Virus record (IMG/VR): IMGVR_UViG_3300042691_000956
Span: 1 to 23,515 of that record
Source of the DNA: a virus
Strand: one strand, 5' to 3'
Length of the DNA stretch: 23,515 nucleotides
The notes beneath the pieces are model-generated. The model made no database searches, was not told the origin of the DNA, and saw nothing but the letters and a program-made list of their open reading frames with translations. Every line of letters starts with the position of its first letter. The stretch's first letter is position 1. The translations under genes and the position numbers were made by a program. Positions 1 through 14,422 of this stretch are shown one piece after another.

Positions 1-1580
1 ATGAAGGTAGGCAGAAGCTTATCAGGGGCATCAACAAGATTGCTCACGCAGTAAAGAGTACATTAGGACCGATGGGTAACACGGTACTGATTGAGTCTTA
101 CCAGCACACTCATTCCATCACGGTTACTAAGGATGGTGTAACTGTAGCCAAGGCGGTAGAGTTATCAGACCCGGTTGAGAACATGGCGGTACGTATTATG
201 AAAGAGGCGGCAGAGCGTACAGCGACATCAGCTGGTGATGGTACGACCACAGCGATTGTATTGACGGAGGCATTGATTAAGGAGGGGTTGGTACAGTTTG
301 CATCCAATCCAAACGTGAACAAGACTGAGGTTTTTAAGAAGTTGGTGGACTTGACGGCACAGGTGGTGGAGTATTTACACAGCAAGAGCATTGAGCTAAC
401 GCCTGAGATGCTATTAGATGTGGCTACTATCTCAGCCAACAACGACACAACGATAGGGAAGATTATTGCTGAGTTGTACAATGACATTGGGATTGATGGT
501 ATTGTAACTGTTGAGAAGTCTCAAAGTACTGAGACATACTCTGAGAGCACGAAGGGTTTGCAGTTTGACCGTGGTTATGCCAGCAACCTATTCATCAACG
601 AGCATGGTAAAGACCAATGTGTCTTTGACGATGTGATGATTATGCTTACGGACATTGAGATTAACTCGGTGTTGCAGATTGAGCAGATACTAAAGCCGGT
701 GATTCAGGAGAACAAGAAGCTTTTAATCATATCTCCCTGCTCACAGAATATGTTAAACACTTTGGTTGCTAACAAAATGAAGAACAACCTAAAGATTTGC
801 GTAGTGTCTCCTCCAAGTTTCGGGTACAGACAGAATGAATTGATGCAGGACATCGCTTTAGCTGTAGGTGCTAACTACTTTTCGGAGAAAACTGGTGACG
901 ATTTGAGCGTAATGAACTACGGAGACCTAGGTCACGCTAGCAAAGTCATCATTGACGACAAGAAAACCATCATCATCCGGTCCGATGTGCGGTCTGATGG
1001 TGAGAAAATACAGGAGAGGCTCACACAATTGTGGTCTGCCTACGACAAAGCCACGAAAAAAGCGGACAAAGACTTCATCAAAGAGCGTATCGGCTCGTTG
1101 AGTGGGGGCGTTGGGGTAATTTTTGTGGGTGGTAACACTGACTTGGAGCAGAAAGAGCTGTACGATAGGGTAGATGACGCAGTATGTGCGGTACATTCAG
1201 CCCTTGAGGAAGGGATTCTACCCGGTGCAGGTAAAGCATTGTACCATATTGGCAACAACCTTCATATGTTGGGGCAAGATAGCGACCAATCGGTGGAAGG
1301 GAACATAGCTTGGGCGATATTAAGCCATGGTATTCAAGCACCACTAGAGCAAATCCTAAACAACGCAGGCATTTGCGTCACTGACATCTACAATGGTAAG
1401 GAAAGTTGGGGCGAAGGCTACAACATCAAGACCAATAAGAAGGGTGGGTTGATTGAGATGGGTGTTATTGACCCATTGAAGGTAACACGCAGTGCATTAC
1501 AGAACGCAGTGAGCGTAGCTGTGACAATTCTTTCCACAAACGCAATCATTACAATGGCAAGAAGCTATGAAACCAAGTAA
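1..1580 (+). CDS. groL: Phage-encoded GroEL (Cpn60) chaperonin, 5'-truncated by window edge
   Basis: An ATP-dependent chaperonin that encloses unfolded proteins in a ring cavity. The frame is open from position 3 (EGRQKLIRGINKIAHAVK), so the ATG at 72 is internal; about 10-12 codons lie outside the window. Nucleotide-site motifs are present: TLGPMG (usual Lys34 is Met), TKDGVTVA with the Asp52 equivalent, AGDGTTTA (Asp87), RVDDAV (Asp398) and VIDPLKVTRSAL (Asp495). The usual GGG loop near Gly415 reads GAG. The apical substrate/GroES groove is recognisable: FDRGYASNLFIN, then helices containing LNTLVANKMK and ELMQDIALAVG. The GGM-rich C-terminal tail is absent; the protein ends ARSYETK. The inter-ring region APLEQILNNAGICVTDI differs from E. 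coli at Arg452 (Glu), Glu461 (Cys) and Val464 (Asp), suggesting a single-ring form. It overlaps the next gene by 14 bases. The family call is certain; the single-ring state is inferred. Confidence 0.97.
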   Translation, partial: EGRQKLIRGINKIAHAVKSTLGPMGNTVLIESYQHTHSITVTKDGVTVAKAVELSDPVENMAVRIMKEAAERTATSAGDGTTTAIVLTEALIKEGLVQFASNPNVNKTEVFKKLVDLTAQVVEYLHSKSIELTPEMLLDVATISANNDTTIGKIIAELYNDIGIDGIVTVEKSQSTETYSESTKGLQFDRGYASNLFINEHGKDQCVFDDVMIMLTDIEINSVLQIEQILKPVIQENKKLLIISPCSQNMLNTLVANKMKNNLKICVVSPPSFGYRQNELMQDIALAVGANYFSEKTGDDLSVMNYGDLGHASKVIIDDKKTIIIRSDVRSDGEKIQERLTQLWSAYDKATKKADKDFIKERIGSLSGGVGVIFVGGNTDLEQKELYDRVDDAVCAVHSALEEGILPGAGKALYHIGNNLHMLGQDSDQSVEGNIAWAILSHGIQAPLEQILNNAGICVTDIYNGKESWGEGYNIKTNKKGGLIEMGVIDPLKVTRSALQNAVSVAVTILSTNAIITMARSYETK

Positions 1581-1827
1581 TAAAAGAGAAGTAATCGAAG
1601 AAAGGTTTGGCGATATGCCCATCTTATTTGCTGATGGGTTCGATGACGCAATCATCGGGGTAGATGTCAACACGTTTCGTGTATGCTATGACGTATTGAA
1701 GTGTATTGAGATACTGATGGAGCAAGAGGGGATGGATGACATTGATGCCACTGACTATTTCTACTACAATGTGTCTGGGGCTTACGTTGGGGAGTACACT
1801 CCAATATGGGTTGAGACTGATTACTAA
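1567..1827 (+). CDS. Conserved phage protein of unknown function between groEL and groES
   Basis: An 86-residue acidic protein whose ATG lies inside the last codons of groEL (14-base overlap), implying translational coupling. I recognise the pattern ADGFDDAIIGVD, then a Tyr/Asp-Val-Leu helix, then YFYYNVSGAYVGEYTPIWV, as a small family common in many tailed phages, usually annotated hypothetical. The function is not known to me. No membrane segment or signal peptide is seen. Its place between chaperonin and co-chaperonin may mean co-expression only, since the family also occurs in phages without chaperonins (recollection). Confidence 0.8.
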   Translation: MKPSNKREVIEERFGDMPILFADGFDDAIIGVDVNTFRVCYDVLKCIEILMEQEGMDDIDATDYFYYNVSGAYVGEYTPIWVETDY

Positions 1828-1828
1828 C

Positions 1829-1848
1829 AGTGTACTTGAGTACACACT
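1829..1848 (+). repeat. Palindromic element, copy 1 (GTGTAC-TTGA-GTACAC)
   Basis: This 20-base stretch, AGTGTACTTGAGTACACACT, begins two bases after the stop codon of the upstream gene and lies just before groES. It contains a perfect 6-bp inverted repeat (1830-1835 with 1840-1845) around a TTGA loop. The same stem occurs at 12382-12397 and 19495-19510 with the loop read as TCAA, its reverse complement. No T-run follows, so it is a weak terminator candidate here. It may be an RNA hairpin in the groES leader or a protein-binding site. Confidence 0.75.
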
Positions 1849-1863
1849 TAAAATTTAAACCAT

Positions 1864-2121
1864 ATGCAACCAATAGGAAAATATATTTTAGTTAAATTGA
1901 TTGAGGAAGAGGTGAAGACCGACAGCGGTCTTCTCCTTACCTCACAAGATGTAAATGATTTCAGATATTGCAAAGCACGGGTGGTTAAACCCGGCACTGA
2001 TGTATCAGTAATCAAAGAAGGCGATGTTATATTCTACGACAAGTCTCACGGCTTTACGATGGTAATCAATCAAGAGCACTTGACTGTGATTCAAGAGCGT
2101 GACGTTGTTGTTGTCTTGTAG
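1864..2121 (+). CDS. groES: GroES-type co-chaperonin (Cpn10)
   Basis: An 85-residue protein, slightly shorter than E. coli GroES (97). It caps the GroEL ring and drives substrate encapsulation. The order of elements fits the family: N-terminal strand PIGKYILVKLIEEE; a mobile loop at residues 17-28 with KTDSGLLLTSQ, where LLL (23-25) stands in for the GroEL-binding Ile-Val-Leu of GroES; a core strand KARVVKPGTD; the signature KEGDVIFYDKSHG (51-63); and a C-terminal strand VIQERDVVVVL. It follows groEL and one small gene, so the phage carries a matched pair. Its last 56 bases overlap the minus-strand regulator gene, so transcription of the two may interfere. The leader contains palindrome copy 1. 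Confidence 0.9.
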   Translation: MQPIGKYILVKLIEEEVKTDSGLLLTSQDVNDFRYCKARVVKPGTDVSVIKEGDVIFYDKSHGFTMVINQEHLTVIQERDVVVVL

Positions 2122-2521
2122 CTTTTCGCATATCCATTATCATATTTCGGTACACCTTGTCTGTGTACTTAACATTCCGTTTGAATATAGGGGAGGTACT
2201 TTCTTTGATTGATATCTCCTCTCCATTCAACTTCTTATAAACGGAGTCGATTAATCTTTTTGATTTCAGGGATAGTTCATAGATGGCTTTCATATTCCTA
2301 CGTGGTTGACGAAAGTGTACTATCCATCCATTAGCAAACAGCTTTTCAAATCTCTTAACATCCCAAGGTATTATATTATCGAACTCATCGAACTTGGCTC
2401 TATCGAAGTAACCTTCTGAGTACAAGAACAATAGTGTTTCCAATTCTGCGGTACTCAATCCATACTTGGATTTGACGTAGTAGCGTATCACACGCCAATA
2501 CTTGAGATAATCTGATTTCAT
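2066..2521 (-). CDS. Winged-helix/MarR-like putative transcription regulator
   Basis: A 151-residue basic protein and the only convincing minus-strand gene. Residues about 18-75 read as a helix-turn-helix (KYGLSTAELETLLFLYSEGY, then a second helix WDVKRFEKLFANGW) followed by a wing-like strand IVHFRQPRRN and a further helix ending KLNGEEIS. This resembles MarR/PadR-type winged helices and a family I recall from Bacteroidota phages with the C-terminal signature KYTDKVYRNMI. It overlaps groES tail to tail by 56 bases and diverges from the basic-protein operon across 38 bases, so it probably controls that shared promoter and perhaps its own. The regulatory role is inferred from fold and position. 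Chance shadow is unlikely: no + strand gene explains most of this interval. Confidence 0.8.
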   Translation of the reverse strand: MKSDYLKYWRVIRYYVKSKYGLSTAELETLLFLYSEGYFDRAKFDEFDNIIPWDVKRFEKLFANGWIVHFRQPRRNMKAIYELSLKSKRLIDSVYKKLNGEEISIKESTSPIFKRNVKYTDKVYRNMIMDMRKATRQQQRHALESQSSALD

Positions 2522-4113: not shown

Positions 4114-6696
4114 ATGTTAAATGCGATAGGCATATATGTAGGGAAGAACGTATTGTCAGGAGGACCTGCTCCTGTCCCAGCACCTGTGGCTACTGCTGCA
4201 ACAGGCGTTGGGGATACATCGTTTATTGCAAACTGGAATGTGTATAGTGGGGCTGTGTACTATTTACTTGACGTAAGTATTAGTAGTTCGTTCGGCAGTT
4301 TCATATTGCAGGACCAGCCTGTATATACCAATTACTTCACAGTAACCGGACTTATCCCAAATAGAACATATTACTATCGTGTTAGAGCAAACACTGACTA
4401 TGATACAGATGCTCAAGCTTATTTCGATAGAGTAACTACTGCTGGTGGCTCATTGACAATAACAGAAAGAACGTCAGTAAATGCCTTGGTCCTAGACATG
4501 AAGTATGCCGGGGTCTGGTCAAGTATGAAAGCGGTTTATCCTATGGTTGGTTCAAGTGCTGCTGCCTGTGCACAGAACTTAATTAGTTCGAGTTATACTG
4601 GCTCTTTTTCAAGTGGTTGGACCTATTCTAATTTAGGTGTTTCTGGGGATGGTACTAGTTCTTATTTTCAAACTAACTTGAATCCAAGTACACAATTAAC
4701 TTCTTCTGTAACAGCAACCGCATACTTGAATAGTGCCTATACAACTGCTGGTAGTTATCCTATTATTTTTAACGCAGTACTTGCTCCAAGTTATAACTAT
4801 TGGGGTGGAGGAGACTGGAATGAAAGTTACATGGGTAGCACTTCTTCATTGATAGGACCTGCTTCACAAACAAGAACTGGATTTTTTAATAGAAGAGCAA
4901 GAACAGGGGAACAAGTTGCTTGGAGAAATACCACTAGTATAGGTACAAGTTCTGTTAACTATACTCCAGCGAATGCTACATATACTTTAGCCGTTAATGA
5001 TGTTTATGGGGTACATAACGGAAGATATGCATTTGTATCATTTGGTGATTACATAACCAATACACAATCAACTACACTATATACGATAGTTCAAACTTTC
5101 CAGACAAGGCTGTCTCGTCAGGTAGGTACTCCTATTGTTCCTGATGCTGATTTACAAGGTTTTATCGATAGAGTATATACAGCAGGTGGTACGCTTTCAA
5201 ATGCTGAGGTAAGCTCAGTAAGTCAATTAACTACGGATTTAAAGATTAATAATCTTTGGTCAAAGATGAAAGCTATCTATCCAATGTTAGGGGCTAGTGC
5301 TGCTGCTTGTGCTCAGAATTTAAGGAGTGCAGGATTCACTGGCTCATTCTCAAGTGGATGGACTTATGCAAGTACTGGGGTAACTCCAAATGGTACAAGT
5401 GCATTCATGAACACAGGGTTGATGCCAAGTTCACAATTAACAGCAAGTTCTACTCACATCAGTTATTATTCAAGAACTGATACAACCACAAATGATGGTG
5501 TTGAAATTGGCTCTTGGAATACAGGATATGCAAATGGGATTGAATTTGCTTTAAATCGTAGTGTTGCATCTCCTAGAACATACATGACATTGAATTCAAC
5601 TCCTGCATCTAATGTATTGGGAGGTAGTCAGGTATCTTCAGGATTCTTTATAGGTAGTAGAACATCAAGTTCGTTAGCAAAAATATATAAGAATAATAGT
5701 ATAGTAGGAACAAATAGTAGTTCATATACCTTAACACTAAGTTCATTTAATTTATACTTAGGTGCATCAAATGATTTTGGCACTGGTGGGGCTTACTCAA
5801 CTAAACAGTGTGCGTTCGCATCTATTGGAGATGGATTGACAGACGCTGAGGCAAGCAACCTATATACTTATGTTCAATCATTCCAAACAAGGTTGTCTCG
5901 TCAAGTAGATAAACCAATTGTTAGCGATGCAGATGCTCAGGCTTTTGTCGATAGAGTATATACAGCAGGTGGCACACTATCTGGTGCTGAACCAATTGCT
6001 GTGAATCAAATGACTATTGATTTAAAGACTGCGAATCTTTGGGCTAAGATTCAGGCTATATACCCAATGGTAGGTGCTAGTGCAGCAGCCTGTTCTCAAA
6101 ATTTAAAAAGCAGTTCGTTTACTGCTACATTTACAGCAGGGTGGACATTTACTAGCCAAGGAGTTACAGGGAATGCAGCATCTACTTATATGGATACTGG
6201 ATTTGTACCTTCGACTAACTTCGCTAGTTTTAACAGTGGAGCTAGTTTGTATAGTAGAACCAATAGTACTGCGGTTATGTACGACTACGGAGTCCAAGCA
6301 TCAGGAGGTATAGGGCATAACGTATACTTAAACTATAGTGGTGTAGGTCTGAGATGGCATTTACAATGTGTATTTGCAGACAGACCTGCTTACACTCCTC
6401 CGGGTACTCAAAGTAATGGATTTTATATTGGAGTTACAGGAGCTGCTAATGATAGACGTGCATATAGAAATGCGGTATTGATTGGTAGCAACACAAGTAT
6501 TTCAACAACAAACCTTACTACTCTGAATCAGAGTATTCCTTTAGGTTGTCTTAGAGATACTGGTACTGGATTCCAAGCTTATTCAAATAGACAGTACTCA
6601 TTGTTTGCATTACATCAAAGTTTAACCGTAAGTGAGGTAAATGATTTCACTTCAATAAATTTAATATTCCAAACAACATTATCAAGAAACGTATGA
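4114..6696 (+). CDS. Large modular fibre protein: FN3 domain plus three tandem lectin-like units
   Basis: 860 residues. After a Pro/Ala linker, residues about 20-92 form a fibronectin type III domain (TSFIANWNVYSGAVYYLLDV, GLIPNRTYYYRVRA). Three homologous units follow from residues 97, 344 and 605. Each opens with (A/F)(F/I/V)DRV-T/Y-TAGG, has a helix ending MKA-V/I-YPM-V/L-G-x-SAAACxQNL, then SG-W-T-Y and a beta-rich, LamG/concanavalin-like body, and closes FQT-R/T-LSR-Q/N-V. This arrangement is common in environmental phage surface proteins that bind glycans. A role in host recognition or as a head/tail fibre is inferred. No enzymatic residues are recognised. Its stop overlaps the next start (ATGA). 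Confidence 0.85.
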   Translation: MLNAIGIYVGKNVLSGGPAPVPAPVATAATGVGDTSFIANWNVYSGAVYYLLDVSISSSFGSFILQDQPVYTNYFTVTGLIPNRTYYYRVRANTDYDTDAQAYFDRVTTAGGSLTITERTSVNALVLDMKYAGVWSSMKAVYPMVGSSAAACAQNLISSSYTGSFSSGWTYSNLGVSGDGTSSYFQTNLNPSTQLTSSVTATAYLNSAYTTAGSYPIIFNAVLAPSYNYWGGGDWNESYMGSTSSLIGPASQTRTGFFNRRARTGEQVAWRNTTSIGTSSVNYTPANATYTLAVNDVYGVHNGRYAFVSFGDYITNTQSTTLYTIVQTFQTRLSRQVGTPIVPDADLQGFIDRVYTAGGTLSNAEVSSVSQLTTDLKINNLWSKMKAIYPMLGASAAACAQNLRSAGFTGSFSSGWTYASTGVTPNGTSAFMNTGLMPSSQLTASSTHISYYSRTDTTTNDGVEIGSWNTGYANGIEFALNRSVASPRTYMTLNSTPASNVLGGSQVSSGFFIGSRTSSSLAKIYKNNSIVGTNSSSYTLTLSSFNLYLGASNDFGTGGAYSTKQCAFASIGDGLTDAEASNLYTYVQSFQTRLSRQVDKPIVSDADAQAFVDRVYTAGGTLSGAEPIAVNQMTIDLKTANLWAKIQAIYPMVGASAAACSQNLKSSSFTATFTAGWTFTSQGVTGNAASTYMDTGFVPSTNFASFNSGASLYSRTNSTAVMYDYGVQASGGIGHNVYLNYSGVGLRWHLQCVFADRPAYTPPGTQSNGFYIGVTGAANDRRAYRNAVLIGSNTSISTTNLTTLNQSIPLGCLRDTGTGFQAYSNRQYSLFALHQSLTVSEVNDFTSINLIFQTTLSRNV
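4402..6693 (+). repeat. Three tandem in-frame ~250-codon repeats within the fibre gene
   Basis: Units begin at 4402, 5143 and 5926 (247, 261 and 256 codons). The junctions are especially similar: TTTCCAGACAAGGCTGTCTC at the end of unit 1 and TTCCAAACAAGGTTGTCTCG at the end of unit 2, both encoding FQTRLSRQV, whereas unit 3 has diverged to FQTTLSRNV. The middle of each unit differs much more than its ends. Confidence 0.85.
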
Positions 6697-7801: not shown

Positions 7802-8074
7802 ATGAAACCTTTAGAAATAGACAAGTCGACTAGATTCAACATCACACTTGAGTTTTTAATTGTGATTATCGCAGGAGTAATAAGCACTATGGGTGTTTAC
7901 TATAAGCTATCTTCTGATATTGAAGAGGCAAAGCAATTGCCTAAGCCATCTGTAACCAAGGAGGAGTATGAGCTGAAAGACCAGCTCTTGCGTACTACCG
8001 TTGACAACATAGACAAGAAGGTTGACAAGATTGACCAGCGTCTTGAAAAAATGGAAGAGAGGCTAATGAGATGA
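7802..8074 (+). CDS. Single-pass membrane protein with C-terminal coiled coil
   Basis: 90 residues. One membrane segment at about 15-33 (LEFLIVIIAGVISTMGVYY) is followed by a charged coiled coil (residues ~52-90, with repeated VDNIDKKVDKIDQRLEKMEE heptads). A short cytoplasmic N-terminus is likely. This architecture appears in phage lysis regions (holin, antiholin or spanin-like accessory), and the gene lies about 0.5 kb before the endolysin. The exact role is unknown. It overlaps the next gene by four bases (ATGA). Confidence 0.7.
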   Translation: MKPLEIDKSTRFNITLEFLIVIIAGVISTMGVYYKLSSDIEEAKQLPKPSVTKEEYELKDQLLRTTVDNIDKKVDKIDQRLEKMEERLMR

Positions 8075-8418
8075 AGACTATAGCTACCGTTTTGATTCTA
8101 GCCTTGATAAGTTTATTCTTCATCAAGAACTCTCAGCCTAAACCTCAAGGCAGTTCAATTCCTGACCTTACTAAAGGGAAGACAGTTGTTCAATTAAACT
8201 ATGAGTGGAACAAGGACCATACTTATAGATGGGTTAATACTCCGGGAGTTAATTACTATTATCTATCATTGGACAAGTTCCCTCCATACATCAAGGACCA
8301 GTTGAAAGTAAAGGCTGTTCCAACGATTATATTGTTTAACAATGGGAAGGAAGTAAAGAGAGTAGATGGTGGGATGTTAATGGAAATAAAAGTACCACAA
8401 TCTGAAATATTAAAGTAA
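8071..8418 (+). CDS. Membrane-anchored thioredoxin-fold protein without CxxC
   Basis: 115 residues. A hydrophobic N-terminal anchor (residues 3-18) precedes a domain whose second half reads LKVKAVPTIILFNNGKEVKR, the thioredoxin cis-Pro loop and following strands. At the position expected for the catalytic CxxC the sequence is YEWNKDHTYRW, with no cysteine in the protein at all. It cannot therefore act as a disulfide reductase. It may be a periplasmic binding or scaffold protein used during infection or lysis. The thioredoxin call rests on the PTIILFNNGK signature and strand order. Confidence 0.65.
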   Translation: MKTIATVLILALISLFFIKNSQPKPQGSSIPDLTKGKTVVQLNYEWNKDHTYRWVNTPGVNYYYLSLDKFPPYIKDQLKVKAVPTIILFNNGKEVKRVDGGMLMEIKVPQSEILK

Positions 8419-10657: not shown

Positions 10658-10884
10658 TGGATATAAGAAAAATAGCTGTTGGTCCTGACTATAAAGGTGG
10701 GGCGATGCATTATATAGTGGGTCAGAAAGTTCTTGATGGGACTAACGAGATTCATTTGATTAAATACAATCCTTCCAAACAATCTATCTTAATCTATATC
10801 ATCAATGATAAGAAAGAGGTAGTTCTTTGGAAAGAATTTTCTCAAACGATTCCAATCTCAATTGAATATAATATCAACTATTAA
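10657..10884 (+). CDS. Small conserved phage protein, unknown function
   Basis: 75 residues. The pattern MDIRKIAVGPDYKGGAMHYI, GQKVLDGTNEIHLIKY, VVLWKEFSQTIPISIEYNI matches a small family I recall from Bacteroidota and pelagic phages, found near structural or packaging genes. It appears to be a compact beta-rich domain without signal, membrane segment or catalytic signature. It shares one base with the next gene (TAATG) and with it probably forms an expression unit reaching to the terminase genes. Confidence 0.75.
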   Translation: MDIRKIAVGPDYKGGAMHYIVGQKVLDGTNEIHLIKYNPSKQSILIYIINDKKEVVLWKEFSQTIPISIEYNINY

Positions 10885-11447
10885 TGAAGTCACCATTTTA
10901 TTTTATAGCCAAACCAGTAAAGAACAGAAGATACAACAACACCAAAGAGATAGCCGGGGTAGATATTATAATCAGTACATCTGAAGAAGACCACAGGTAT
11001 TCAAACAGATACGCTGAAGTTATCGAAACGCCTTTAGGTTATACTGGGGCTATCAAGCCCGGTGACATTTTGTTGGTTCATCATAATGTATTTAAGTTCT
11101 ATAATGACATGAAAGGCAAACGCAGAAGCGGTAAGTCTTTCTTTAAAGATGACTACTTCTTTATTGAGCTGGACCAGTTCTTTATGTACAAGCAAGACGG
11201 CAAGTGGAATTCACATGACCGGTTTTGTTTTGTTAAGCCAATGCCTGTAGTTGATTCTTATATATTCAAACCATTCAAAGAAGAACCTTTGATGGGCGAG
11301 ATGGCATATCCTAATGACTATTTAAAAAGCAAAGGTGTAAAGTCTGGAGATATAGTTTGTTTCCAGCCGGAGAGTGAGTATGAGTTTGATGTTGATGGAG
11401 AAAAGATGTACAGAATTTACGACCACCAAATAACAGTAAGGCTATGA
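10884..11447 (+). CDS. GroES-like-fold phage protein, possible second co-chaperonin
   Basis: 187 residues. The first half reads FYFIAKPVKN, RYAEVIETPLGYTGAIKPGD, ILLVHHNVFKFYNDMKG: strand, then an xEVI-x-x-P segment, then xxGDILLVHH, the pattern of a Cpn10 barrel. The second half repeats it: FCFVKPMPV, KSGDIVCFQPESEYEFDVDG, EKMYRIYDHQITVRL. It thus looks like two tandem GroES-like barrels, about twice the length of GroES. I recall relatives in environmental phages annotated as GroES-like. A mobile loop with an obvious hydrophobic triad is not evident (EIAGVDIIISTSEE is a candidate). It could be a chaperone cap for capsid folding, like T4 gp31, or a structural protein. Confidence 0.5.
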   Translation: MKSPFYFIAKPVKNRRYNNTKEIAGVDIIISTSEEDHRYSNRYAEVIETPLGYTGAIKPGDILLVHHNVFKFYNDMKGKRRSGKSFFKDDYFFIELDQFFMYKQDGKWNSHDRFCFVKPMPVVDSYIFKPFKEEPLMGEMAYPNDYLKSKGVKSGDIVCFQPESEYEFDVDGEKMYRIYDHQITVRL

Positions 11448-11914
11448 ACATAATGATATCTGATGACGCAATAGAAAATCCTATTGAGTACTTAAAAGAA
11501 ATATTTTCTAACGATTTCCAAGATTTCCCTGATGGGGATAAAGTATTTAAGGGGATTCAGCCAAGAGAATACGATGAGTTTGCGAAGTACTGCACGTATC
11601 TATTTAGTGACTCTATGGTCATGTTAAACTTTATACGTAAGTCTCCGTATAAACAATTAGAACCAACCTTTATTCATTCGGATGAAATGATGGGGGACAT
11701 TACGTGCATTCTGTACTTGACTCAGAATCCACCAAAAGATGATGGAACTATATTCTATAATGATGATGAAGAAATCTCTTGCGAAGTGAGAGCTAAGTTC
11801 AATAGGATGGTGGCATTTGATTCTTCTATTAAACACTCTCGTGCTATCTTTGATAACTACGGAGAAGAAGATGATGCTAGATTAATTCAAGTTGTATTCC
11901 TTAAAAAGCTATGA
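11444..11914 (+). CDS. 2-oxoglutarate/Fe(II)-dependent oxygenase-like protein
   Basis: 156 residues. The double-stranded beta-helix signature is clear: FIHSDEMMGDITCILYLTQN supplies His78 and Asp80 (HxD), then NRMVAFDSSIKHSRAIFDNY supplies His131, and ARLIQVVFL supplies Arg146 for 2-oxoglutarate. The LYL-x-QNPP turn and the F-D-S/P-x-x-x-H pattern fit prolyl-hydroxylase-like phage oxygenases (DUF6445-like, from memory). The reaction would be hydroxylation of a protein, base or small molecule; the substrate is unknown. Unusually it lies between a GroES-like gene and the small terminase gene, overlapping each by four bases. Confidence 0.8.
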   Translation: MNIMISDDAIENPIEYLKEIFSNDFQDFPDGDKVFKGIQPREYDEFAKYCTYLFSDSMVMLNFIRKSPYKQLEPTFIHSDEMMGDITCILYLTQNPPKDDGTIFYNDDEEISCEVRAKFNRMVAFDSSIKHSRAIFDNYGEEDDARLIQVVFLKKL

Positions 11915-12195
11915 GAGATATCAGGAAAATAAAGTTGGATATCATTGATGCTGGTCACGTTGCTATTGAGCAGTTGATAAAAGTTGCTAAAGAAGATATC
12001 TTGAAGACGGGAGAAGACGATGAGTTATCGGCAGACAGATTAAAGAATGCGGCAGCTACAAAGAGATTAGCTATATTTGATGCGTTTGAGATTCTCAATA
12101 AGATTGAATCTGAAAAAGAGAATCTGGATATGCTAGATAAAGGAGTAAGTACAACCGATAGTAAAATAGGTTTTGCAGAAAGAAGGTCAAGATAA
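11911..12195 (+). CDS. terS: Putative small terminase subunit
   Basis: 94 residues, mostly helical: IRKIKLDIIDAGHVAIEQLI, a short acidic turn, ELSADRLKNAAATKRLAIFD, then AFEILNKIESEKENLD. It lies directly upstream of the large terminase, overlapping it, as TerS usually does, and I recall similar proteins at this position in related phages. TerS forms a ring that binds phage DNA and regulates packaging. No canonical helix-turn-helix is obvious, so the assignment depends on context. It could instead be a small helical packaging accessory. Confidence 0.6.
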   Translation: MRDIRKIKLDIIDAGHVAIEQLIKVAKEDILKTGEDDELSADRLKNAAATKRLAIFDAFEILNKIESEKENLDMLDKGVSTTDSKIGFAERRSR

Positions 12196-14422
12196 TAATC
12201 TGTATAGGGTTATTGAAAATTATATCCCTAATCAAGTTCTTAAATCTAAGAACAGGTTGAAATCATGGACCTATGGGTACAATGAGGATTACGATATGGT
12301 TGTCATATCCAAGACCGGAGAGATAGGAGAAATAGTATTCATATCTGGATTAATCATAGCATTACCACTATCCCCAAAAGAGTGTACTCAAGTACACACT
12401 AAAAAGGAAGAGCAGTACTGGGAAAGGCAAGAACTTCCCAGAGAACTAGAGAAGATACAATCTACATTCCAATGGAACGATATGCCCGTTCAGTTTAAAA
12501 ACAAGTGGGTAGATTATATTGAAAAGCAATTCGACTACCGTGAGCAAGGGCATTGGTTTATGAATAACGGAAAGCCAACCTACATTACGGGGGCACATTG
12601 GTTTTACCTACAGTGGTCCAGTATAGATGTAGGATACCCAGATTATCGTGAGGCGAATAGAATACTCTTCATATTTTGGGAGGCGTGCAAGGCTGATGAC
12701 AGGTGTTTTGGAATGATATACTTGAAGATAAGACGTTCAGGATTTTCATTCATGGCATCTTCAGAATGCGTAAACACTGCTACGTTGGCTAGGGATTCAC
12801 GTGTTGGTATATTGTCAAAGACCGGACCTGATGCTAAGAAGATGTTTACAGACAAGGTAGTACCTATCAATAGTAAACTACCATTCTTCTTCAGACCGAT
12901 AATGGATGGTATGGACAAGCCAAAGACAGAGTTGTCTTATAGAGTCCCTGCCTCAAAGATTACCAAGAAGAATATGCACGACATCAACTCCGAGGAGATG
13001 GATGGATTGGACACCACTATTGACTGGAGGAACACAGACGACAACTCATATGACGGTGAGAAGTTGTTGTTATTGGTACATGACGAAAGCGGTAAGTGGG
13101 TAAAGCCTGTTAACATCAAAACGAACTGGCGTGTAACAAAGACTTGTTTGCGATTGGGGCGTAAGATTATTGGTAAGTGCTTGATGGGTTCTACATCAAA
13201 TGCTTTGAGCAAAGGTGGTCAGAACTTCAAGGATATGTATGAGGATTCAAACATTGCACATCGCAATGCTAACGGTCAAACTAAGAGTGGGTTGTATTCT
13301 CTGTTCATTCCTATGGAGTGGAACATGGAAGGATTTATAGACCGATATGGGATGCCGGTATTCCGCACCCCATCTGTTCCTATCCGTGGTATTGATGAAG
13401 GTTGGATAAAGGTAGGAGCTGTTGATTATTGGGAGGCAGAGGTAGATGGATTGAAGAGTGATGCTGATGCACTCAATGAATACTACCGACAGTATCCAAG
13501 AACTGAGTCTCATGCATTTAGAGATGAGAGCAAGCAGGCGATATTTAACCTCACTAAGATTTATCAGCAAATAGATTACAACGATTCTCAAATGGAATCG
13601 CACCATCTTACTCGTGGTTCGTTCCATTGGAAGGACGGGGAGAAGGATAGCAAAGTGGTGTTTACCCCAGATAGCCGTGGTAGATTTTTGGTAAGTTGGT
13701 TTCCACCAAAGGAGTTGCAGAATAATATCGCTCAAAGGAATGGAATGAAGTATCCCGGAAATGAGCACCTTGGGGCGTTTGGATGTGACCCTTATGATAT
13801 ATCAGCAGTAGTAGATGGTAGGGGGTCTAATGGGTCGCTTCACGGAATGACTAAGTTCCATATGGAGGATGCCCCGGTTAGCCAGTTTTTTTTGGAATAC
13901 ATAGCTCGTCCTCAAACCGCAGAGATATTCTTTGAGGAAGTATTGATGGCTTGCGTATTCTACGGAATGCCAATACTTGTAGAGAATAACAGACCACGAT
14001 TGCTGTATCACTTGAAAAATAGAGGATACCGAGGCTTTAGTCTGAATCGACCTGATAAGCCGTTAGCAAAGCTTAGTAAGACTGAGAAAGAGTTAGGAGG
14101 GATACCTAACTCATCTGAGGATGTAAAGCAAGCTCACGCATCTGCTATTGAAACATACATAGAAAAGCATATTGGATTTGACTTTGCTGGTACTTATAGA
14201 GACCCTGATGAGATAGGTATTATGCCTTTCAATAGAACATTAGAAGACTGGGCTAAGTTTGATATAGAAGAAAGAAATAAGTTTGACGCATCAATTAGTT
14301 CTGGTCTTGCTATTATGGCAAATCAAAAACACGTATATTTACCTGAAAAACAACAATCCAAAATAAGCATTACTTTTGCAAGGTATTCCAATAACGGTAA
14401 TATAAGTGAACTACTCCGATGA
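12173..14422 (+). CDS. terL: Large terminase subunit (ATPase-nuclease)
   Basis: About 749 residues. It powers DNA translocation into the head and cuts concatemers. ATPase part: Walker A-like RRSGFSF (187-193, lacking the usual GKT/GKS), GILSKTGPDAKKMF, Walker B LLLLVHDE (Asp304-Glu305) and coupling motif GSTS (339-342). Nuclease part: FGCDPYD (Asp539) and ILVENNRP (Glu604), with later acidic candidates near KFDASISSGLA. The start is uncertain: TTG at 12173 overlaps terS; the first in-frame ATG (12296) would remove the segment LYRVIENYIP, which I recall as the N-terminus of relatives; a CTG at 12200 lies exactly at that point. A 20-base palindromic element sits in frame at 12381. The family call is firm, the start is not. 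Confidence 0.92.
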   Translation: MQKEGQDNNLYRVIENYIPNQVLKSKNRLKSWTYGYNEDYDMVVISKTGEIGEIVFISGLIIALPLSPKECTQVHTKKEEQYWERQELPRELEKIQSTFQWNDMPVQFKNKWVDYIEKQFDYREQGHWFMNNGKPTYITGAHWFYLQWSSIDVGYPDYREANRILFIFWEACKADDRCFGMIYLKIRRSGFSFMASSECVNTATLARDSRVGILSKTGPDAKKMFTDKVVPINSKLPFFFRPIMDGMDKPKTELSYRVPASKITKKNMHDINSEEMDGLDTTIDWRNTDDNSYDGEKLLLLVHDESGKWVKPVNIKTNWRVTKTCLRLGRKIIGKCLMGSTSNALSKGGQNFKDMYEDSNIAHRNANGQTKSGLYSLFIPMEWNMEGFIDRYGMPVFRTPSVPIRGIDEGWIKVGAVDYWEAEVDGLKSDADALNEYYRQYPRTESHAFRDESKQAIFNLTKIYQQIDYNDSQMESHHLTRGSFHWKDGEKDSKVVFTPDSRGRFLVSWFPPKELQNNIAQRNGMKYPGNEHLGAFGCDPYDISAVVDGRGSNGSLHGMTKFHMEDAPVSQFFLEYIARPQTAEIFFEEVLMACVFYGMPILVENNRPRLLYHLKNRGYRGFSLNRPDKPLAKLSKTEKELGGIPNSSEDVKQAHASAIETYIEKHIGFDFAGTYRDPDEIGIMPFNRTLEDWAKFDIEERNKFDASISSGLAIMANQKHVYLPEKQQSKISITFARYSNNGNISELLR
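12381..12400 (+). repeat. Palindromic element, copy 2, inside terL
   Basis: AGTGTACTCAAGTACACACT differs from copy 1 (1829-1848) only in the middle of the loop (TCAA for TTGA). It is translated as part of ECTQVHT, between the N-terminal segment and the KKEEQYWERQELP segment of TerL, a place that looks like a tolerant linker. The perfect stem is 12382-12387 with 12392-12397. Confidence 0.75.

Follow-up and report, generated by a model that had tools for sequence, protein, structure and literature searches.

The window analysed here is an entire virus record of 23.5 kb, from a virus that infects Bacteroidota-type bacteria, and its left end falls inside a groEL gene. A GroEL gene, an ORF of 86 aa and a GroES gene follow one another in series on the + strand, and a second GroES-like protein, ES2, is encoded further downstream (Table 1). 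The profile matches of GroEL and GroES lie well outside what chance would produce. The remainder of the window contains phage terminase, portal and virion protein genes; a scan of the window for tRNA genes found none. The initial annotation described a complete GroEL/GroES pair in one operon. The row of genes is as described, but GroEL is not complete within the window, its start lying beyond base 1; the near-identical contig L002 provides the missing start, MTDFINPSMGYSPKDLNFGDEGRQ. For the operon, the sole basis is the same-strand packing, with a 14-nt overlap between GroEL and the small ORF and 36 nt between the small ORF and GroES. A promoter scan of the window scored no better than shuffles, and a terminator scan was likewise uninformative.

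Table 1. Positions of the chaperonin genes and of the neighbouring features discussed in the text
Feature	Position	Strand	Description
Phage GroEL (group I chaperonin)	3-1580	+	525 aa, 5′ end cut by the edge of the record; Pfam PF00118, E 7e-55; phrog_5725, E 7e-131
86-aa ORF between groEL and groES	1567-1827	+	phrog_13182, E 7e-21
Phage GroES (Cpn10)	1864-2121	+	85 aa; Pfam Cpn10, E 8e-12; PHROG GroES, E 9e-17
Convergent gene	2066-2521	-	phrog_17028, E 5e-9; 56-base overlap between its 3′ end and groES
ES2, second GroES-like protein	10884-11447	+	Two barrels in tandem; encoded three genes before terminase; phrog_13932
Terminase large subunit (context of ES2)	12173-14422	+	phrog_6681, E 3e-176

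The closest annotated record is MW202828, from an uncultured podovirus, in which groEL, groES and the convergent gene are followed by peptidase M15 and terminase genes. A homologue of the convergent gene faces groES in 137 of 140 loci; it is tightly linked to groES and is named 'repressor protein' in the annotation of MW202828. The 86-aa ORF has a detectable homologue in 28 of 140 loci; its product is acidic, and a small gene likewise separates the two chaperonin genes of Cellulophaga phage phi38:1. Several other products of the window were noted in passing. A short basic protein (2642-2812) is very rich in Lys and Ala, with a composition resembling a histone tail. An 860-aa protein (4114-6696) combines an N-terminal fn3-like domain with about three long repeats that resemble one another (YPM(V/L)GASAAACAQNL...) and is possibly a surface or receptor-binding protein. 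A small membrane-anchored protein (8071-8418) looks thioredoxin-like (VKAVPTIILFNNGKEV) without a CxxC motif. Finally, the gene between ES2 and terminase (11444-11914) encodes a protein resembling 2OG-Fe(II) oxygenases, for which the Pfam match is just under the cut-off and the PHROG label is 'minor coat protein'.

The co-occurrence of GroEL and GroES in a phage had been presented as rare, with a search of phage genomes for co-located Cpn60 and Cpn10 proposed as the check. Such a search matched 56 viral contigs by GroEL and 80 by GroES, and in all 129 loci holding this GroEL it is followed on the same strand by a GroES gene, at a median distance of 238 nt; the count of loci omits near-copies of the window and includes twice the few contigs fetched by both searches. 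Eight further GroES loci have no visible GroEL, and in these the contig ends within ~1.6 kb upstream. Isolated phages also carry both genes. In a phage database, 68 records of phages of Flavobacterium sp. BAL314 (elemo phages, Elemovirus) match both proteins, and in the elemo record that we inspected groEL and groES are annotated as adjacent genes, in the same order as in the window. In phi38:1 (Pervagoviridae, Callevirus), groEL, one small gene and a Cpn10 gene are contiguous, although unlike in the window the order is Cpn10 then groEL; this Cpn10 was missed by the A2 GroES profile and found by Pfam only. Cpn10 scored above the Pfam cut-off in all ten records scanned, nine of them known to hold GroEL. 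Both proteins have been reported for Maribacter phage Panino (PMC11590407), and a 2020 paper noted both homologs in some phages (PMC7185714). The pair is thus common in a large, partly described phage group, and the claim of rarity is refuted by the very search proposed for it.

We then compared the window GroEL with its relatives. Its Cpn60 domain is full-length (Pfam Cpn60_TCP1, 187 bits versus a cut-off of 34.3, profile positions 1-488 of 490), and the ATP site (GDGTTT, D52, D87, D398 and D495) is complete in the window GroEL and in all 112 of its relatives examined, which bears out the earlier description of intact ATP-site Asp residues for D52, D87 and D398. Among 63 phage and 55 bacterial representatives, ATP-site positions are kept at 98% versus 52% for all bacterially conserved positions. 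The protein is 37% identical to Salmonella GroEL and only ~40% identical to the nearest bacterial GroELs, and its C terminus has no GGM tail. In a tree that also held 33 bacterial sequences and four other phage types, the podophage GroELs form one separate clade (support 100), the long elemo branch having an unsure position. Gene order differs as well: bacterial loci read groES-groEL in 78 of 79 cases, whereas the phage order is groEL-groES. Recent capture from a host was rejected for the podophage clade on the low identity to the nearest bacterial GroELs and the separateness of the clade. An EL-type chaperonin was rejected by the presence of GroES and by sequence distance, matches to bacterial GroEL structures having E values of 1e-97 to 1e-109 versus 1e-30 for 6tmt, which we take to be the EL chaperonin. 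In Bacteroides phage SJC03 (L172), GroEL and Cpn10 are annotated only as hypothetical proteins; its GroEL, unlike the podophage clade, nests among Bacteroidota sequences, which implies that host capture has occurred more than once.

These comparisons bear on a rival reading that holds, in part, that ES2 is merely a further GroES paralogue of minor importance. It draws on what is conventional in the system, namely the intact ATP site and whole-length Cpn60 match of GroEL, a GroES that is a bona fide Cpn10 by both Pfam and fold, and the existence of other phages, such as SJC03, with a GroEL nested among host sequences. We regard it as unlikely, as the GroEL clade stands apart from all bacterial GroELs, the gene order is the reverse of the bacterial one, and ring-contact and groove residues that are fixed in bacteria have been replaced, as described below.

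The apical groove, earlier called recognisable, is so at Y199, F204, L237 and N265, all kept in the window, but it is altered at Y203 (to L), L234 (to E) and V264 (to A). The change of L234 to E is found in 112 of 112 relatives, and Y203 to L, E238 to K, A241 to I and V264 to A are common or near-fixed among them. Since L234E places a charged residue in the groove that takes up GroES and substrate, binding of either is not assured, and this and the other groove changes could be read as marks of a decayed or repurposed chaperonin that has lost protein folding. We consider this highly improbable: reading frames are intact in ~100 relatives, the ATP site is near-invariant and the pairing constant, and the phi38:1 GroEL protein is made during infection, mass spectrometry having detected it both in infected cells and in virions (PMC13288928). 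Rather, the residue changes suggest to us a groove interface that has been re-keyed to the phage's own lid.

The 85-aa lid scored 45.4 bits against the Pfam Cpn10 profile (curated cut-off 21.1). Its AlphaFold model (pLDDT 93) is a GroES beta-barrel, and the best 36 Foldseek matches were GroES, Cpn10, Cpn20-complex or gp31 chains. The clear mobile loop that had been proposed from KTDSGLLLTSQ, residues 18-28 of the protein, was upheld: it contains the hydrophobic tripeptide L23-L24-L25, and [LI]-x-L is found in nearly all of 84 relatives. The segment that corresponds to the roof hairpin is 10 residues long in 84 of 84 phage sequences; Salmonella has 19 residues there, and most bacterial GroES in the comparison have 14. 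Judged by this alignment, the phage GroES is without a roof hairpin. The hairpin is absent from T4 gp31 as well, whose lack of roof loops has been proposed to widen the opening for gp23 (PMC6318259). T4 gp31 and RB49 CocO are phage GroES proteins like that of the window, but proteins of this type use the host GroEL with no phage GroEL, whereas the window phage has its own GroEL on the same record; set against them, the window GroES also passes the Pfam Cpn10 cut-off. Together, the sequences and predicted models establish GroEL and GroES as intact members of their families that always occur as a pair, belong to a clade that is old and specific to phages, and retain the catalytic residues. The earlier proposal of a self-contained phage folding system, a chaperonin with its own co-chaperonin, is the best reading of the locus because the gene order, the pairing and both active-site signatures are conserved.

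Residues at the contacts between the two GroEL rings have fared differently from those of the ATP site. K105, A109, R452, E461, S463 and V464 are all replaced in the window (E452, C461, T463 and D464; position 109 is P or S by alignment, never A) and largely lost in the clade, whereas 80 bacterial GroELs are near-invariant there, with R452 in 76, E461 in 73 and V464 in 64. Contact positions 105, 109, 452 and 461 are kept at 12% versus 58% for conserved equatorial positions (permutation P 0.024), a test of four sites only in a divergent clade. The elemo GroEL differs from that of the window (35% identity, a very long branch) in keeping both R452 and L234. A single-ring variant of the E. coli protein is mutated at 452, 461, 463 and 464 (the first residue is numbered 451 in PMC5575113). 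A single-ring phage GroEL is thus plausible from these substitutions. More generally, the loss of ring contacts favours a GroEL that either stays a single ring or joins its rings through another interface; that a different double ring is possible is shown by phage EL, whose double rings part into single rings with ATP (PMC7185714). The assignment as a group I homologue stands while a GroEL-type double ring appears less probable, as contact loss bears on ring state and not on homology. Phages EL, OBP and AR9 resemble the window phage in encoding a GroEL, and single-ring or ring-separating behaviour would be a parallel between them; however, their chaperonins act without a co-chaperonin (PMC9598537), whereas the type found here always has a co-chaperonin gene and is remote in sequence.

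The earlier picture of one co-chaperonin missed ES2, which we located through elemo and phi38:1 annotations of a co-chaperonin GroES beside terminase (a 180-aa protein in elemo; immediately before terminase in phi38:1, where it is ~34% identical to the window ES2). ES2 matches phrog_13932 'co-chaperonin GroES' (E 3.5e-22) and occurs in 34 of the 38 long related records; the other four, at 39-52 kb versus ~60 kb for full genomes, are possibly fragments. Relatives of ES2 are encoded by 588 or more matching stretches in viral contigs. The AlphaFold model (pLDDT 82) has two GroES-like barrels in one chain. Its top Foldseek match is the tandem co-chaperonin Cpn20 (7ekq_R, E 3.6e-5), with which residues 1-187 of the predicted model align (VIA Z 10.0, 162 residues aligned); after it come ordinary GroES structures, which match residues 106-187 with Z about 8. 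At the sequence level, the window ES2 has no Pfam match to Cpn10 at E up to 1, and a PDB sequence search with the ES2 profile gave sub-threshold GroES matches only (E 0.055); the phi38:1 homologue passes the Pfam Cpn10 cut-off at 24.1 bits. Tandem Cpn20 has been reviewed as chloroplast-specific and as forming mixed rings of seven domains (PMC5780408). ES2 shares its two barrels, with alignment over the whole length of ES2, but belongs to a phage rather than a plastid, has an unclear C-terminal loop, and resembles Cpn20 in structure with no specific sequence relationship apparent. We had also considered ES2 as the sole lid of phi38:1, which is wrong, as Pfam finds a Cpn10 beside the phi38:1 GroEL.

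The position of ES2 raises the alternative that it is a virion or assembly factor reusing the GroES barrel, for example in head completion or in association with terminase, and that the chaperonin consists of GroEL and the 85-aa GroES only. Indeed, ES2 lies in the packaging module, beside or near terminase, in the window, MW202828, elemo and phi38:1; its C-terminal barrel has no clear mobile loop, and ES2 and the phage GroES match weakly when their profiles are compared directly. Other features argue for a lid. In addition to the whole-chain match to a tandem co-chaperonin, the N-terminal loop of ES2 holds a conserved tripeptide. Among 99 sequences, its first residue, which corresponds to GroES I25, is hydrophobic in ~93, its middle residue is acidic in 97, and its last, which corresponds to L27, is hydrophobic in 99. 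This hydrophobic-acidic-hydrophobic pattern is compatible with results on E. coli GroES, where binding is lost in the I25D and L27D mutants but not in V26D (PMC5575113). Furthermore, the phi38:1 homologue (gp089) carries no structural label while many of its neighbours do. Distances between GroEL sequences also correlate with those of ES2 (partial r 0.55), GroES (0.60) and the linked non-partner gene at 2066-2521 (0.47) in 26 genomes with partial terminase sequences as the control; GroEL divergence thus tracks ES2 about as well as it tracks GroES once terminase is allowed for, a result that is suggestive only. On balance, a virion factor is possible but doubtful.

ES2-type proteins may have been seen before, as the core proteins of Pervagoviridae include a 'chaperonin cpn10' (PMC8776804). 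A search of the literature available to us found no paper on the tandem nature or use of ES2. While the GroEL/GroES pair is already known, the tandem second lid is a less-known variant, labelled by databases and apparently unstudied.

The explanation that we favour, with somewhat better than even confidence, is an old phage-specific group I chaperonin accompanied by a dedicated, re-keyed GroES lid and by ES2, a second, tandem lid-like protein encoded in the packaging module. In such a system, the groove of GroEL would take up phage proteins, the phage GroES or a ring containing ES2 would close the cavity, and ATP hydrolysis would free the product. The chaperonin would probably act as a single ring, or as a double ring joined weakly or differently, because the canonical ring-ring contacts are gone. 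By analogy with T4 gp31 and gp23, a roofless GroES and partly double-barrelled lids would make the folding chamber bigger or less closed, to suit a late protein, for instance a component of the capsid or of the packaging machinery. More tentatively, and with little confidence, we speculate that this is a natural single-ring group I chaperonin with two lids, one a roofless GroES and the other a tandem lid that arose independently of plastid Cpn20; the two might form mixed seven-domain rings, and the tandem lid, made late and encoded beside the packaging genes, would serve to fold a particular virion protein. If this is true, these phages would have a compact natural chaperonin that is without the GroEL ring-ring contacts yet still has a dedicated lid, plus an additional lid of the tandem kind, which is elsewhere called chloroplast-specific. 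The system would then offer a direct test of lid-dependent cycling by a single ring and of the way in which even-numbered lids fit onto seven-fold rings.
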